Source of the DNA: Tabrizicola fusiformis
Lineage (GTDB): Bacteria > Pseudomonadota > Alphaproteobacteria > Rhodobacterales > Rhodobacteraceae
Reading direction: 5' to 3'
Assembly (NCBI RefSeq): GCF_013328815.1
Contig: NZ_JABUHN010000009.1
Coordinates: 1 to 64,000 of the forward strand
Length of the DNA stretch: 64,000 bases
Shown: positions 19,053 through 44,754 of the stretch, one piece after another
Position numbering within the stretch: position 1 is the first letter of the stretch
How the letters are laid out: the number at the start of each line of letters is the position of its first letter
Notes under the pieces: generated by a model
The model's input: the letters and a program-made list of their open reading frames with translations, nothing else
Databases searched by the model: none
Told to the model about the DNA's origin: nothing
Program-made: the position numbers and the translations under genes

Positions 19053-19061
19053 TCCCGGGCG

Positions 19062-19087
19062 GGATGGGCAGATTGCCCATCCTACGC
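19062..19087 (+). repeat. REP-like palindrome, copy 1
   Basis: GGATGGGCAGATTGCCCATCC followed by TACGC. It is the first half of an inverted pair placed between the ends of frcK and rpsU. The inner dyad could form a hairpin in RNA from either strand. Confidence 0.85.
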
Positions 19088-19097
19088 CGCCCGCCTG

Positions 19098-19120
19098 TAG
19101 GATGGGCAATCTGCCCATCC
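19098..19120 (-). repeat. REP-like palindrome, copy 2 (inverted)
   Basis: TAGGATGGGCAATCTGCCCATCC is the exact reverse complement of the core of copy 1, ten bases away, so the two can also pair with each other in a long cruciform, as in BIME elements. Confidence 0.85.
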
Positions 19121-19136
19121 CCCTCCCCCGGAAATG

Positions 19137-20224: not shown

Positions 20225-21214
20225 ATGACGCTTTCCCACAGCATGACCGCCATTGCGATCAGCGAACCCGGCGAGCCGGATGTGCTGCACCCCGTCACCG
20301 TGCCGGTGCCGGTGCCCGGCCATGGCCAGATCATCGTGCGGCTGGCCTATGCCGGGGTGAACCGGCCCGATGCGCTGCAACGCGCCGGGGCCTATGCACC
20401 GCCGCCCTCCGCCTCGCCCCTGCCGGGGTTGGAAGGGGCGGGCACCGTGGTTGACCGTGGCCCCGGCGTGACCCGCTGGAAGATCGGCGATCAGGTCTGC
20501 GCCCTGTTTCCCGGCGGCGCCTATGCCGAATATGCCGCCTGCGCCGAGGCCCATGCCCTGCCGATCCCCGCCGGGATGAGCCTGCGCGAAGCCGCCTGCC
20601 TGCCGGAAACCTGCTTTACCGTCTGGTCCAATATGGTGACGCGCGGCGGCTTGCAGGCCGGAGAGCGGTTTTTGGTCCATGGCGGCACATCTGGCATCGG
20701 CACCACCGCCATCCAGATTGCCCGCGCCCTTGGCGCCCGGGTCTTTGCCACCGCCGGCAGCGACGAAAAGGCCCGCTTCTGCGAGGAACTGGGGGCAGAG
20801 CGCGGCATCAACTACCATGACGAGGATTTCGTCACGATCCTCAAGGCCGAAGGTGGGGCGGACCTGATCCTTGACATGGTGGGCGGCCCCTATCTGCCGC
20901 GCAATATCCGCGCGCTGGCCGATGACGGGCGGCTGGTGCAGATCGCCTTTCTGCAAGGCCCCAAGGTCGAGGTCAACTTTGCCGAGATGATGACCCGCCG
21001 CCTGACCCTGACCGGATCAACCCTGCGGCCGCAATCAGATCAGGCCAAGGCCCGCATCGCGCAGGCGGTGGAAACCCATGTCTGGCCGCTGATCACACGC
21101 GGCGCGCTGCGTCCGGTGATCGACAGCGAATTTGCCCTGACCGAGGCCGCCAAGGCGCATTGGCGCATCGAAAGCCCGGGGCATATCGGCAAGATCGTGT
21201 TGAAGGTTGGTTAG
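20225..21214 (+). CDS. NAD(P)H-quinone oxidoreductase, zinc-independent MDR
   Basis: 329 residues, quinone oxidoreductase/PIG3-like branch of the medium-chain dehydrogenase superfamily. The GroES-like N-terminal half contains AYAGVNRPDALQRAGAY; the Rossmann half contains VHGGTSGIGTTAIQIARAL near residue 155. Zinc-ligand cysteines of alcohol dehydrogenases are absent. It probably reduces quinones or enones with NADPH in the cytoplasm. It begins 27 bp after COQ9, so an operon is likely. Confidence 0.93.
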   Translation: MTLSHSMTAIAISEPGEPDVLHPVTVPVPVPGHGQIIVRLAYAGVNRPDALQRAGAYAPPPSASPLPGLEGAGTVVDRGPGVTRWKIGDQVCALFPGGAYAEYAACAEAHALPIPAGMSLREAACLPETCFTVWSNMVTRGGLQAGERFLVHGGTSGIGTTAIQIARALGARVFATAGSDEKARFCEELGAERGINYHDEDFVTILKAEGGADLILDMVGGPYLPRNIRALADDGRLVQIAFLQGPKVEVNFAEMMTRRLTLTGSTLRPQSDQAKARIAQAVETHVWPLITRGALRPVIDSEFALTEAAKAHWRIESPGHIGKIVLKVG

Positions 21215-21236
21215 GATGGGCAGATTGCCCATCCTA
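21212..21236 (+). repeat. REP-like palindrome, copy 3
   Basis: TAGGATGGGCAGATTGCCCATCCTA begins at the last three bases of the quinone oxidoreductase gene, so its TAG also serves as that gene's stop codon. First half of a second inverted pair between convergent genes. Confidence 0.85.
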
Positions 21237-21280
21237 CGCCAGCGCGTGTGATGGCCCCGCACAACCGGACGGCACCCCGC

Positions 21281-21305
21281 GTAGGATGGGCAATTTGCCC
21301 ATCCC
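21281..21305 (-). repeat. REP-like palindrome, copy 4 (inverted)
   Basis: GTAGGATGGGCAATTTGCCCATCCC, inverted relative to copy 3 and 44 bp away. It ends ten bases from the stop of the convergent sulfotransferase gene; the pair may act as a two-way terminator. Confidence 0.85.
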
Positions 21306-21314
21306 GCCGATCCC

Positions 21315-22133
21315 TCAATCGCCCAACTTGCGATGCACCTCGTCCAGGTCGACCTCACCCACCGGCATCTTGTTGTCGGGATCGTCGAAGTCATATTTGA
21401 AAAGCTGGAAATCCTTCTTGTAGATTTCCCAGATCAGGTGCCGCGACAGATCATCGAAATAGTCGCTGACCGGATGGGCGCGCTTCGGCCCGTGCCCTTC
21501 GCTTTCGTTGAAACGAGGGATCTTCTTGAGGTCGATCTTGTGCTTGGGCTTGATCCGCTTGACGACCTTCTGCATCCCTTCATCGAATTTCTCGGTGTGG
21601 AAGATGCTGTCATAGCGCCCGCCGTTGACGATGAAGGTCGAGATATGCCCCGACATCGCCGACCAGTGGATGTCCGGCTCCATCGGCTTGCGGAAGCGGA
21701 TGGTGTCGCGCGCGAACAACAGGAAGCGGCGAAAGCTCTTGATCTGGTCAAAATCGAACCCGTTCTCGGGCGTGCCCGTCTCAACCCCGTATTTCTGCAT
21801 CAGGAGCGGCACCAGATTGCCGCGATAGCGCTTGCCGTTGCGCTGGATGCCGCAAATCTTGTCGAAATAGGACGAAAGAATCCGGGCATAGGGGTTGCGC
21901 ACGCAGGTAAAAGCATAAGACTTGTGGGTCTTGACGTTGCGCTCGATCAGCGGCTGGCTGGCCTCCAACGCCCATTTGTGCATACCGCCCGTCGCATCGT
22001 GAATGTCCCCATCGAAGAACACCCCATGGTCCGAGTAATACATGATCTGGCCGATCGTCGAGCAGGCGCATTTCGGCACCACGCGGTAAACCACGCTTTC
22101 GCTCTCCGTCATCCAGGTGCCGGGAAACCCCAT
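21315..22133 (-). CDS. Sulfotransferase family 2 protein
   Basis: 272 residues. The 5'-phosphosulfate-binding loop VPKCACSTIGQIMYY lies at about residue 20, and the 3'-phosphate motif is probably CVRNPYARILSSYFDK near residue 90, both typical of carbohydrate sulfotransferases using PAPS. The start at 22133 has GTGGAGG nine bases upstream, whereas a longer in-frame start has no ribosome-binding site. It is divergent from a GT14 glycosyltransferase across 147 bp, suggesting sulfation of the same surface glycan. GC content is visibly lower than in the flanking housekeeping genes. Confidence 0.87.
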   Translation of the reverse strand: MGFPGTWMTESESVVYRVVPKCACSTIGQIMYYSDHGVFFDGDIHDATGGMHKWALEASQPLIERNVKTHKSYAFTCVRNPYARILSSYFDKICGIQRNGKRYRGNLVPLLMQKYGVETGTPENGFDFDQIKSFRRFLLFARDTIRFRKPMEPDIHWSAMSGHISTFIVNGGRYDSIFHTEKFDEGMQKVVKRIKPKHKIDLKKIPRFNESEGHGPKRAHPVSDYFDDLSRHLIWEIYKKDFQLFKYDFDDPDNKMPVGEVDLDEVHRKLGD

Positions 22134-29751: not shown

Positions 29752-30806
29752 CGGCGCTTGCCGATATCCTCCGGGCGCGGATCGCCGCAACCGGACCGAT
29801 CAGCCTGGCCGATTACATGGCCGAATGCCTGCTGCACCCCCAGCATGGCTATTACACCACCCGACCGCCTTTCGGGGCCGAGGGCGATTTCACCACCGCC
29901 CCCGAAATCTCGCAGATGTTCGGCGAATTGCTGGGCCTGTGCCTTGCCCAACACTGGCTGGACCTTGGTCGCCCCGCGCCCTTCACGCTGGCCGAGCTTG
30001 GCCCGGGGCGCGGCACGCTGATGGCCGATGTGCTGCGCGCCACGCGCGGGGTGCCCGGGTTTCATGCCGCGGCGCAGGTGGTGCTGGTCGAAGCCTCGCC
30101 CCGGCTGCGGGGCGTGCAGGCGGCCACGCTGGCACCCCACGCGCCGCTCTGGCTGGATGACACCGCCGATCTGCCCGACCGGCCACTGTTCCTGCTGGCG
30201 AATGAATTCTTTGATGCCCTGCCGGTCCACCAATACCAACGCGACGCGCGGGGCTGGTGCGAGCGTCTGGTGGGTCTGCGCGACGGCGCCCTGTGCTTTG
30301 GCCTCTCCGAGCCACAGTCGCGCCCCGACCTGACCGCCGCCTTCCCCGGCGATCCGCCCGGAACCGTGGTGGAAACCTGCCCCGAGGCGCAGCGGCATAT
30401 GGCCCATATCGCCCGCCGCCTGCGGGATCATGGCGGGCTGGCACTGATCCTCGACTATGGCGGCTGGCAGTCCAAGGGCGACACCCTGCAGGCGCTGCGC
30501 CACCATGCCTTTGCAGACCCGCTGGCAGAACCCGGGCTGGCCGACCTGACCGCGCATGTCGATTTCGCCGCACTGGCCGCCGGGGCCGACGGGCTGGCGC
30601 ACCGCTATACCGCCCAAGGCCGCCTTCTGCGCGCGCTGGGGATCGAGGCGCGGGCGACCCGGCTGGCACAGGGGCTGACCGGCGCGGCGCTTGAGGCGCA
30701 TCTTGCCGCGACACGCCGCTTGACCGACCCCGCCGAAATGGGAGAGTTGTTCAAGGCGCTGGCGGTTCTGCCCGCCACCGCACCGCCGCCGCCGGGATTC
30801 GACTGA
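29748..30806 (+). CDS. MidA/NDUFAF7-like SAM-dependent methyltransferase
   Basis: 352 residues. It shows the family start [20 protein letters not shown], the SAM-binding loop [15 protein letters not shown] and [14 protein letters not shown]. The mitochondrial homologue NDUFAF7 methylates an arginine of the complex I NDUFS2 subunit, and a similar role with NuoD is likely here. The ATG is coupled to the lgt stop and its TGA shares a base with the pgeF start (TGATG). Confidence 0.93.
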
Positions 30807-31555
30807 TGCTGGAATTCATCACCTCCGACGCGCTGCCGGTCAGGCATGGCTTCTTCACCCGCAAGGGGGGGGCATCGTCCGGCATTTTCGCCGGGCTGAA
30901 CTGCGGCACCGGCAGCTCTGATCTGGCCGAGATCGTGGCGATCAACCGGGCCCGCGTGGCCGAGGCGATGGGTGTCCCCCCGGATCAGATGATGACGGTG
31001 CATCAGGTGCATTCGCCCGATGTGCTGACGGTGACCGCCGCCCAGCCGATCCGCCCGCGCGCCGATGCCATGGTCACCGCGACGCCCGGCGTGGCGCTGG
31101 CGGTGCTGACCGCCGATTGCCAGCCTGTGCTGTTCGCCGATGCTGCGGCGGGCGTGGTGGGGGCCGCCCATGCCGGCTGGCGCGGGGCAAAGGACGGTGT
31201 GCTTGAGGCGACTCTGGACGCGATGGAGGCATTGGGGGCCAAGCGTGCCAACATCGCCGCCGTGATCGGCCCCTGCATCAGCCAGGCCGCCTATGAGGTC
31301 GGACCGGAGTTCTATGAGACCTTCACCGACGACGACCCCGAGACGCGCCGGTTTTTCGCGGGTGGCAACGGCGACCGGATGCTGTTCGACCTGCCCGCCT
31401 ATGGGCTTTGGCGGTTGCGTCAGGCGGGGGTGGGCCATGCCGAATGGACCCGGCATTGCACCTACCGCGACCCCGAGCGATTCTATTCCTACCGCCGCAC
31501 TACCCATGCCGGTGAAGTGGATTATGGCCGTCTGATCTCGGTGATCCGGCTTTAG
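30806..31555 (+). CDS. pgeF: Peptidoglycan editing factor PgeF (laccase-domain family)
   Basis: 249 residues with the family's conserved His/Cys metal-site motifs: MTVHQVHSPDV, LTADCQPVLFAD, GAAHAGWRGAKDG and GPCISQAAYEVGPEFYE. YfiH/PgeF keeps L-serine from being misincorporated in place of L-alanine in the muropeptide; other family members were described as polyphenol oxidases or purine nucleosidases. Last gene of the lgt operon. A perfect inverted repeat lies 28 bp behind its stop. Confidence 0.93.
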   Translation: MLEFITSDALPVRHGFFTRKGGASSGIFAGLNCGTGSSDLAEIVAINRARVAEAMGVPPDQMMTVHQVHSPDVLTVTAAQPIRPRADAMVTATPGVALAVLTADCQPVLFADAAAGVVGAAHAGWRGAKDGVLEATLDAMEALGAKRANIAAVIGPCISQAAYEVGPEFYETFTDDDPETRRFFAGGNGDRMLFDLPAYGLWRLRQAGVGHAEWTRHCTYRDPERFYSYRRTTHAGEVDYGRLISVIRL

Positions 31556-31583
31556 GGCAGAAAACGGCCCGGATTTGCCGCAA

Positions 31584-31617
31584 TTCAGGAAACAATCGCA
31601 CGGCACTGTTTCCTGAA
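31584..31617. other. 11-bp perfect inverted repeat downstream of pgeF
   Basis: TTCAGGAAACA and TGTTTCCTGAA flank a 12-base spacer. On the plus strand it is followed by CTTGGTTTAT, a weak U-tract, so it could be a terminator for lgt-midA-pgeF or an operator for the downstream small gene. The remainder of this 240-bp gap (31556-31795) shows nothing else recognisable. Confidence 0.55.
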
Positions 31618-31795
31618 CTTGGTTTATCCGATAGATAACAACGGGTTGGAACAGGAAAGCCGCCGCCACAATCGCGGCACCCCGCCCCCTGACTTGGGCG
31701 AAAATTCCACAATTGCAGCCAAAACGCCGCCGCAAAGCCGGGCGATAGTGGCCTCAAGGTTGAACAAGCCAACAGATCACGCGCAGGAGCCCGCC

Positions 31796-31948
31796 ATGAA
31801 AAAAGAACGCCGCTGGATGAAATCGGTCCTCGCCGCCTCGACCGAGGTGCAGGTTGCGATGCCTTGGGCCCGGGGCGCCCGCCGCCGCCCGCAAGCGATG
31901 AAGCCTGCCATCGCGCAGCCGGTAAGCCGCGCCCTCGCCGCGCGCTAA
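31796..31948 (+). CDS. Small basic protein, 50 residues
   Basis: MKKERRWMKSVLAASTEVQV is followed by MPWARGARRRP and an Arg/Ala-rich tail. It has an AGGAG ribosome-binding site seven bases before the ATG, and a strong terminator 25 bp after the stop, so it looks like an independent small gene. I have a vague memory of similar 40-50 residue proteins with a MPWARG core in Rhodobacteraceae but no function. The strongly positive charge would suit RNA, membrane or ribosome binding (inference). Confidence 0.65.
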   Translation: MKKERRWMKSVLAASTEVQVAMPWARGARRRPQAMKPAIAQPVSRALAAR

Positions 31949-31972
31949 CCCTGCCTCTGATTCGCGCCGAAG

Positions 31973-31995
31973 GGCCGGGATCTTCCCGGCCTTTT
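31973..31995 (+). terminator. Rho-independent terminator of the small basic gene
   Basis: GGCCGGGA-TCT-TCCCGGCC, an 8-bp perfect stem, followed by TTTTG. It lies 25 bp behind the stop codon of the 50-residue protein. Confidence 0.85.
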
Positions 31996-32040
31996 GTCAT
32001 TTTTCGGCCCGGCGAATCGCGGGGCGGCGTCACAACCTGC

Positions 32041-32070
32041 GGGATTGTTCGCGCAGCGCAGAACAATCCC
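32041..32070. other. 10-bp perfect inverted repeat
   Basis: GGGATTGTTC and GAACAATCCC flank a 10-base spacer. No T-run follows on either side. It is one of five further dyads packed in the 358-bp gap between the small basic gene and matB. Confidence 0.7.
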
Positions 32071-32105
32071 CGCCATCCGCCCCGCGCCGGTTTCAAAGCC
32101 TGATC

Positions 32106-32120
32106 AATTAAGGATTAATT
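32106..32120. promoter_or_regulatory. AT-rich palindrome
   Basis: AATTAA-GGA-TTAATT, followed at once by TTGACA (32121-32126). In a genome this GC-rich such an AT island usually marks a promoter or operator. It precedes the hairpin series at 32135-32292. Confidence 0.4.
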
Positions 32121-32134
32121 TTGACAGCGGGTCG

Positions 32135-32297
32135 CGTTTCCGCCATCTTCCGCCCTACAGACGTCCCTCTGTGAAATGGCGGAAACGGGAATGGTAAGAC
32201 CTTCGGGCAGCCCCAACCGCACCGGACCTTCCCGTCCGGTCATGCTCGGTCAAGGCCGCCCCGGTGTTCTCTGGCACCATCACGGGGCGGCCTGAAC
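32135..32297 (+). ncRNA. Candidate structured small RNA (three hairpins)
   Basis: Three stems in series: a 12-bp perfect stem (32135-32146 with 32176-32187, itself with an inner ACAG/CTGT stem), a 7-bp stem ACCGGAC/GTCCGGT with loop CTTCCC (32221-32240), and a 10-bp stem GGCCGCCCCG/CGGGGCGGCC with inner GGTG/CACC (32254-32292) ending in TGAACTTTT. The last could terminate either a plus-strand RNA or minus-strand matB. No open frame fits. It does not match SRP RNA, tmRNA or RNase P RNA as I know them. The strand and 5' end are uncertain, because TTGACA at 32121 would place the start inside stem 1. Confidence 0.35.
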
Positions 32298-32306
32298 TTT
32301 TCCGGG

Positions 32307-33815
32307 TTACCCCTTGAACCAACCGGCATATTCGGCGCGCAGCAGGTTCTTCTGCACCTTGCCCATGGTGTTGCGCGGCAGGCTTTCGACCACCAGCGCG
32401 CCCTTCGGCTGCTTGAACCGCGCCAGCCGGTCGCGCAGCCCCGCCAGCACGGCGCCTGCATCAAGCGTGACGCCCTTCTGCGCCGTCAGCACGGCAAAGA
32501 CCGCCTCGCCGAAATCGGGATGCGGCAGGCCGATCACCGCGCTTTCCAGCACGCCGGACTGTTCGTCGAGCAGCATCTCGACCTCTTTGGGATAGACGTT
32601 GTAACCGCCGGTGATGATCAGATCCTTCGCCCGCCCGACGATGGTGACATAGCCGTCGGCATCCTGCGTGCCCAGATCGCCGGTGATGAACCAGCCATCC
32701 TCGCGCAGTTCCTCGCGGGTTTTTTCCGGCATCTGCCAGTAGCCCTTGAACACATTCGGGCCGCGCACCTCGATCACGCCAACCTCACCCCGGGCCACTT
32801 CACCCGCCTCACCCATGATGCGCAGTTCCACCCCCGGAAGGGGCAGGCCAACCGTGCCCGCCCGCCGCTCCCCGTCGTAGGGGTTGGAAGTGTTCATGTT
32901 GGTTTCCGTCATGCCATAGCGTTCCAGAATCCGCAGGCCGGTGCGCTCTTCAAACGCGCGGTGCGTTTCGGCCAAAAGCGGCGCCGAGCCAGAGATGAAC
33001 AGCCGCATATGCCCGGTCAGCGCCCGGTCCAGCCGGGGATCGTCCAGCAGCCGGGTGTAGAAGGTCGGCACGCCCATCATCGCCGTCGCCTGCGGCAGAA
33101 GGCCGATCGCCTGATCGGTGTCAAACCCCGGCAGGAAAATCATCGACCCGCCGGTCAGCAGGCTGAGGTTCGAGGCCACGAAAAGCCCGTGGGTGTGAAA
33201 GATCGGCAGCGCGTGCAGCAGCACATCCCTGTCGGTAAAGCGCCAGAGATCGGCCAGAACCCGCGCGTTGGACAGCAGGTTGTCATGGCTGAGCATCGCC
33301 CCTTTCGAGCGCCCCGTGGTGCCCGAAGTGTAAAGGATCGCCGCCAGATCCTCTGGCCCGCGCGGCGCGACGGCCAGCGTATCGGGCAGACCGGCGGCCA
33401 ATTCAGCCAATTCACCGCCGCCTGTCACCCCCAGGGTCAAAAGCCGCGCACCATGCTGTGCCGCAACTGGCGTCAGCGCCGCCTGCCGGACCGAATCGCA
33501 CAGGAACACCCGCGGCGTGGCATTGCCAAGGAAATAGCCAACCTCTTCCGGCGTGTAGGCGGTGTTCAGCGGCAGGAAGACCGCCCCCGCCGCCACCGTG
33601 GCGCCGTAAACCGCCAGCGCCTCGGGCGATTTGGCGACCTGCACCGCCACCCGGTCGCCCGGCTGCACCCCTGCTGCGCGCAGCGCATGACCGAACCGCG
33701 CCACCATCCGCAAAAAGGCATCACCGGAAATCGAGCCCCCCGAGGCCAGTTTCAGCAGCACGGTCTGGCGCCCGGCAAGCGGTGCGAAGAGGGCATCGTA
33801 AAGCGTGTTCGTCAT
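32307..33815 (-). CDS. matB: Malonyl-CoA synthetase
   Basis: 502 residues, acyl-adenylate-forming family. The phosphate loop YTSGTTGRSKGAMLSH lies near residue 160. The malonate-specific region RYGMTETNMNTSNPYDGERR includes the arginine that binds the second carboxylate. TGDLGTQDADGYVTIVGRAKD and the C-terminal Lys in PRNTMGKVQKN complete the catalytic set. It ligates malonate to CoA using ATP. No decarboxylase (matA) or transporter sits beside it. The start at 33815 has AAGGAG eight bases upstream. Confidence 0.92.
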   Translation of the reverse strand: MTNTLYDALFAPLAGRQTVLLKLASGGSISGDAFLRMVARFGHALRAAGVQPGDRVAVQVAKSPEALAVYGATVAAGAVFLPLNTAYTPEEVGYFLGNATPRVFLCDSVRQAALTPVAAQHGARLLTLGVTGGGELAELAAGLPDTLAVAPRGPEDLAAILYTSGTTGRSKGAMLSHDNLLSNARVLADLWRFTDRDVLLHALPIFHTHGLFVASNLSLLTGGSMIFLPGFDTDQAIGLLPQATAMMGVPTFYTRLLDDPRLDRALTGHMRLFISGSAPLLAETHRAFEERTGLRILERYGMTETNMNTSNPYDGERRAGTVGLPLPGVELRIMGEAGEVARGEVGVIEVRGPNVFKGYWQMPEKTREELREDGWFITGDLGTQDADGYVTIVGRAKDLIITGGYNVYPKEVEMLLDEQSGVLESAVIGLPHPDFGEAVFAVLTAQKGVTLDAGAVLAGLRDRLARFKQPKGALVVESLPRNTMGKVQKNLLRAEYAGWFKG

Positions 33816-41091: not shown

Positions 41092-41119
41092 GTAGGATGG
41101 GCAATATTGCCCATCCTAC
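41092..41119. repeat. REP-like palindrome, copy 5
   Basis: A perfect 28-bp palindrome: GTAGGATGGGCAAT and its exact complement ATTGCCCATCCTAC. It lies between the chorismate mutase stop and the rpsP ribosome-binding site, so inside an operon. Confidence 0.88.
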
Positions 41120-44570: not shown

Positions 44571-44754
44571 CGCGGCGCTCCTGCTTGCGGTCTGGCCCCC
44601 ATATGGGAACCGGCGGGGATTTCCCAAGGCCAATGCAAAACGGCACCTGTGGGCGCAACGCGCTGACAGGTGGCGATCCCGGCATGTGCCAAGGGACCGG
44701 AAGCGGCAAGCCTCCGGGGAATTCAGGCGCGGATACGCCGGTCTGCCGCGCGAG

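Follow-up and report, generated by a model that had tools for sequence, protein, structure and literature searches.

Genes and dyads between pgeF and matB

The window analysed here, a stretch of 64,000 nt of Tabrizicola fusiformis DNA whose source we take to belong to the Rhodobacteraceae/Paracoccaceae, contains a region rich in dyads between pgeF and the convergent gene matB (Table 1). A preliminary description had listed a series of dyads in this region, and each of them was found where it had been placed. Using 300 dinucleotide-preserving shuffles of positions 31556-32306 to derive expectations, we counted the perfect dyads of this interval by arm length: seven with arms of 7 bp or more as against 2.15 expected (p ~0.003), five with 8 bp or more (0.57 expected), and four with 10 bp or more (expectation 0.05), the last number being reached by no shuffle. 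Among 84 tiles of 751 nt across the window, one matched the region in its number of dyads with arms of 10 bp or more. The stem-loops do exist, and their number is far above chance.

The dyads at 31584, 31973 and 32041 are separate features outside the RNA gene described below, and since these left stems belong to other features, a single structure formed by all stems could be ruled out. The first follows pgeF and is perhaps the end of the pgeF transcript, with a poor T tract; a genome-wide repeat was considered for the GGAAACAATC that it contains and rejected, with only five copies in 4.4 Mb. The second (31973-31991), which had been proposed to be a terminator, falls within the site called by a terminator scan after the small open reading frame, and the third is an element upstream of the promoter. 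The small open reading frame encodes the basic protein of 50 residues (RRWMKS...MPWARGARR) already pointed out in the preliminary description, which is conserved at the same place in most relatives with roughly 40-79% identity and matches no Pfam or NCBIfam family. Elsewhere in the window, a palindrome built on GTAGGATGGGCAAT is repeated at 19061-19121, 21200-21318 and 41092-41119 and looks like an interspersed palindromic repeat family.

Table 1. Features of the region from pgeF to matB (positions in the window).
Feature	Position	Strand	Evidence or remark
pgeF (peptidoglycan editing factor), upstream neighbour and syntenic anchor	30806-31555	+	TIGR00726 and PF02578 above cut-off
11-bp dyad after pgeF containing GGAAACAATC	31584-31617		Outside RNA gene
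Conserved gene for 50-aa basic protein, syntenic with RNA	31796-31948	+	tblastn, nearly all syntenic loci
Intrinsic terminator of 50-aa gene	31968-31996	+	Terminator scan
Promoter-upstream dyad GGGATTGTTC...GAACAATCCC	32041-32070		Holds GAACAAT (32061-32067), 59 bp before TTTGAC
AT-rich palindrome, AATTAAGAATTAA-like promoter element directly before -35	32106-32119		Conserved
Promoter: TTGACA (32121-32126), 17-nt spacer, CATCTT (32144-32149)	32121-32149	+	-10 region conservation in 25 loci
12-bp dyad joining -10 region to ~+30	32135-32187		Not kept in most relatives
Putative small RNA gene	32156-32302	+	~147 nt, ends approximate; R1 154.7 bits, R2 138.1 bits in window
5' hairpin ACAGA/TCTGT of RNA	32157-32172	+	All five pairs change on both sides; 90.6% of cells form pairs
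Conserved GGTAAGACC segment of RNA	32193-32201	+	Pattern present in 24/33 sequences
Variable hairpin ACCGGAC/GTCCGGT	32221-32240	+	Letters and length differ among relatives
Terminator hairpin: outer helix 32253-32262 with 32284-32293, inner helix 32263-32266 with 32275-32278	32253-32302	+
matB, convergent downstream neighbour	32307-33812	-	NF005702

Architecture of the putative small RNA

At its 3' end, the region is inferred to encode a small transcript that would start near 32156, 7 bases past CATCTT, and end with the T tract around 32302; its start was predicted from the consensus hexamers. From 5' to 3', the RNA would consist of the 5' hairpin, the GGUAAGACC segment, the variable hairpin and the terminator hairpin with its CUCUG loop. 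The 5' hairpin (32157-32161 with 32168-32172) is missing from the dyads of the preliminary description, according to which the last three stems form a structured RNA. The stems at 32221 and 32253 do lie within the predicted RNA; the 12-bp stem, whose start lies upstream of the -10 hexamer, is therefore probably outside the transcript and no RNA stem. The same dyad was also rejected as an RNA helix on the grounds that it overlaps the -10 hexamer and that a similar one occurs in one relative of the same genus (L002) and nowhere in the wider set. In L002 it recurs with altered letters (CGCCGCCAT/ATGGCGGCG), and L003 and L004 have a different dyad there (AATTTCCCC/GGGGAAATT).

The last stem exists as described but differs in size, extending over 11 bp (32253-32293) and being topped by a second, inner helix. 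In this hairpin 10 of 14 pairs show changes on both sides and 98.8-99.2% of cells are paired, and the loop motif CTCTG (32269-32273; CUCUG in RNA) is invariant in all 33 sequences. The hairpin is strong, conserved and GC-rich and is followed by a short T tract (32298-32301, within CTTTTCC); it was absent from the list of a simple terminator scan. Among relatives, the RNA ranges from 131 to 180 nt in length. A search of the 33 RNA sequences for a conserved coding frame found none, any one frame being open in at most 11 of them.

Promoter and upstream elements

In 25 loci, positions C24, A25 and T29 of the -10 region are conserved at 92-100%, while the conservation of TTTGAC is built in, its presence being a condition of locus picking. 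The sRNA promoter was not among the sites listed by a simple promoter scan. Farther upstream, an element RAACAATC (at most one mismatch) is found at -58 to -60 from TTTGAC in 42 of 77 promoters of the locus and at any other offset in about one of the 77; in control stretches of equal size elsewhere, a related pattern was seen in 4/77. The palindrome directly before the -35 hexamer reads ATTAAGGATTAAT. Across the 77 loci, AT-rich elements recur at approximately -54, -34 and -13 from TTTGAC, about 21 bp apart, and may all face the same side of the DNA, where either the alpha subunits of RNA polymerase or a regulator would bind.

Distribution and covariation

In blastn comparisons within the genus, two of three genomes kept no more than the final 130 bases and a part of the small-ORF region. 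A covariance model built from eight sequences (R1) matched 17 of 395 genomes of the family, and a model rebuilt from 32 sequences (R2) matched 23 of the 395. A custom model, as proposed in the preliminary description, thus found relatives at the syntenic place: 22 of the 23 matching genomes have their best R2 match on the downstream side of pgeF, nearly always with the small open reading frame in between. The two non-syntenic matches are the weakest (L070 and L071, E 0.007-0.008), and that at L071 is the second in a genome that also carries a syntenic one. Named carriers include Cypionkella, Pseudorhodobacter and Rhodobacter-like genomes, and a DNA pattern scan yielded 17 loci from named records, of which a few belong to the same genomes. 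A class-wide R2 search of 385 genomes, with a coarse first pass, returned only the window's own copy. In Cypionkella aquatica the locus is present on two contigs (L048, L057) inside an identical block of at least 7.5 kb, which is either a recent duplication or an assembly artefact.

The RNA gene is absent in several close relatives and is therefore dispensable there. The gene downstream also changes, being matB in the window and mostly asnC elsewhere, so that the RNA is not tied to this neighbour. Among the loci read, matB stands beside the sRNA only in this genus, and a convergent asnC does so in most relatives.

In the alignment of 33 sequences, both partners vary in 15 of the 19 base pairs and 96.8% of cells are paired, as compared with 84.7% in shuffled and 40-51% in slid controls, which bears on the covariation analysis that the preliminary description had proposed: compensatory changes are present. 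In two genomes (G001 and G002) the 5' hairpin is rebuilt as CUUAG/CUAAG. Since this alignment had been fitted to the model, which makes the structure count partly circular, the count was repeated on the first, unfitted alignment of eight sequences; here 92.1% of cells were paired and five pairs showed double changes, and slid versions reached at most 52%. The mean folding z-score of the RNA is -3.05. Taken together, the 3' part of the region very probably represents an intergenic small RNA gene, judged from its sequence features. The preliminary suggestion of a structured small RNA of no known family at this end is thus supported by the negative Rfam search reported below, the syntenic covariance-model matches and the compensatory stem changes.

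Comparison with known RNAs

The sRNA region, searched against Rfam at gathering and at permissive thresholds, gave chance matches only, in line with the preliminary view that no family fits. Elsewhere in the window, positions 44636-44687 on the minus strand match the Rfam ffh sRNA (RF01793) with 59.7 bits. 6S RNA (RF00013), an abundant RNA type, is small and structured like the sRNA; it was rejected as a candidate, the sole match in the genome lying on another contig (G000:C45:306650-306807). The CCUCCUCCC motif of CcsR/cuckoo type sRNAs is absent from the window's RNA.

Several small RNAs have been described in the same bacterial family. SorY and PcrZ of Rhodobacter sphaeroides resemble the sRNA in having their own promoter and a short non-coding transcript; PcrZ is 136 nt long, and its promoter region is bound by FnrL (PMC6238624). 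A SorY model matched the sRNA region at chance level only. The UTR-derived sRNAs of Rhodobacter, UpsM and UdsA-UdsH, are likewise small RNAs linked to mRNA ends (PMC8625941), whereas the sRNA reported here has a conserved promoter directly upstream and a convergent gene after it. Pos19, an RpoE-controlled coding RNA of 219 nt that lies between cxp and fadB (PMC5036791), StsR, of 72 nt and under RpoHI/HII (PMC8307010), both small RNAs of R. sphaeroides, and UdsC, of 67 nt and derived from a 3' UTR (PMC8625941), were rejected as the sRNA, the place, length or promoter given in these papers being different. The sRNA thus appears to be an undescribed family of a known kind, a small RNA gene; it may still be an orthologue of PcrZ or of some sRNA that has been published in a supplementary list alone.

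A Hint_2 gene at the same locus in other genera

In other genera, a Hint_2 (PF13403) gene occupies the same spot after pgeF and the 50-aa open reading frame, and it has the same promoter with TTTGAC and elements at -59, -34 and -13. Three states were found in 124 regions downstream of pgeF, a non-random sample into which sRNA loci had been put on purpose, namely the sRNA, the Hint_2 gene, or neither. Directly before the start codon, 61 of 68 Hint regions (L080, L074, L083 and 58 others) carry a leader with the consensus GUCCUUCUGUCGUUGUCGGUGGGGGCCGACGCGGAUGUGACC, whose helix has support, GGUGGGGGCC being its leader hairpin. The leader occurs once per genome where searched, and none of ten Hint-leader loci matched a family in Rfam; it is a second undescribed conserved element. 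Among 22 chosen genomes, 12 have the sRNA, seven have the leader (once each, at this locus), none has both and three have neither. The window's own genome contains ten Hint_2 genes elsewhere, and the leader search there was negative.

The leader model R3 gave no match at any sRNA when searched against the sRNA loci, and R2 found only weak matches at Hint loci (L074, E 0.007; L084, E 0.13). With a nucleotide HMM of Hint leaders, the best match among sRNA loci had an E of 0.12 and most of the top matches fell exactly on the sRNA promoter, so the similarity between leader and sRNA mainly concerns the promoter and the first bases. The bodies of the two RNAs are weakly similar, and both transcripts have a GTCC-TCTG motif at the RNA 5' end. 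Some Hint genes have a hairpin in their first codons that is laid out like the sRNA terminator, with an outer helix, an inner helix, a CCUCU loop and a 3' bulge. When compared with synonymous recodings, this first-codon segment proved the more stable in 13 of 46 genes at p<0.05, with several at p ~0.003 or less, and it is this segment to which R2 gives its weak scores in L074 and L084. On a PgeF tree, which has a midpoint root and many weakly supported branches, the sRNA state requires two changes as compared with a shuffled mean of 15.6, and the Hint genes lie mostly outside the sRNA group.

Discussion

With moderate confidence, we consider a small RNA gene with a base-pairing loop to be the best explanation of the whole. 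Transcription by RNA polymerase with the housekeeping sigma factor would begin near 32156 at the conserved TTGACA-N17-CATCTT promoter, with assistance from upstream elements in phase at roughly -59, -34 and -13 relative to TTTGAC, and it would stop at the GC-rich hairpin 32253-32293. The predicted RNA retains the 5' hairpin and the double-decker terminator hairpin, the latter displaying the invariant CUCUG loop, which could act as a seed pairing with (C)AGAG(G), for example in the ribosome binding sites of other mRNAs, and thereby block their translation. Action in trans by base pairing is somewhat better than an even bet. Promoter, structure, conservation, synteny and the lack of coding capacity are supported by the sequence, while the transcript ends, action in trans, the role of the loop as a seed, and the targets are predicted.

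The main rival to base pairing is protein binding, in which a real RNA would use its two pyrimidine-rich hairpins to bind a protein, be it an RNA chaperone or some other RNA-binding protein. The invariant CUCUG loop, the conserved loop of the 5' hairpin and the variable middle would agree with such a role, but the loop equally fits a base-pairing seed and no protein partner is known, and we regard this possibility as rather unlikely. It is quite improbable that the locus is a decaying Hint_2 remnant in which the promoter and a leftover 5' end are still transcribed without function. The locus and promoter are the same as those of the Hint_2 gene, the sRNA and the leader are mutually exclusive and the whole stretch is missing in some relatives, as would be expected of a remnant; however, 15 of 19 pairs show compensatory changes and the loop is invariant across divergent genera, which speaks for selection on the RNA.

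Two further explanations deserve very little credence. The stems might be nothing more than terminators, together with dyads that arose by chance in the space between two convergent genes; the last of them would then also serve matB, which ends 14 bp from it in a region that also contains an ordinary terminator. Yet the hairpin is retained where asnC replaces matB, its matB side has no T tract, and the 5' hairpin and the promoter are likewise conserved. A role of the RNA in cis, as leader or attenuator for the gene that follows, which the same promoter driving a gene with a structured leader in other genera could suggest, is just as hard to credit: the next gene is convergent (matB or asnC) in the window and at most sRNA loci, and no co-directional gene lies downstream of the sRNA in the window.

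We hold with considerable confidence that the promoter is common to the sRNA and the Hint_2 gene by descent, and the sRNA probably replaced, or remained from, a Hint_2 gene at this locus. At slightly under even chances, the sRNA arose from the protein gene itself: an ancestral Hint_2 gene would have lost its coding sequence and retained the promoter, the transcript 5' end and the CCUCU-loop hairpin. The hairpin in the first codons would then have become the terminator, and its exposed loop the working part.

The locus adds an undescribed, structurally conserved RNA gene to the well-studied Rhodobacteraceae, and the sRNA is directly testable through its clear promoter, predicted ends and candidate working loop. 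If the proposed origin is true, the 5' part of the mRNA may already be regulatory in relatives that keep the Hint protein. Should descent be confirmed, a promoter that drives a protein gene in some genera and an sRNA in related ones would provide a traceable case of how a protein gene becomes an RNA gene.
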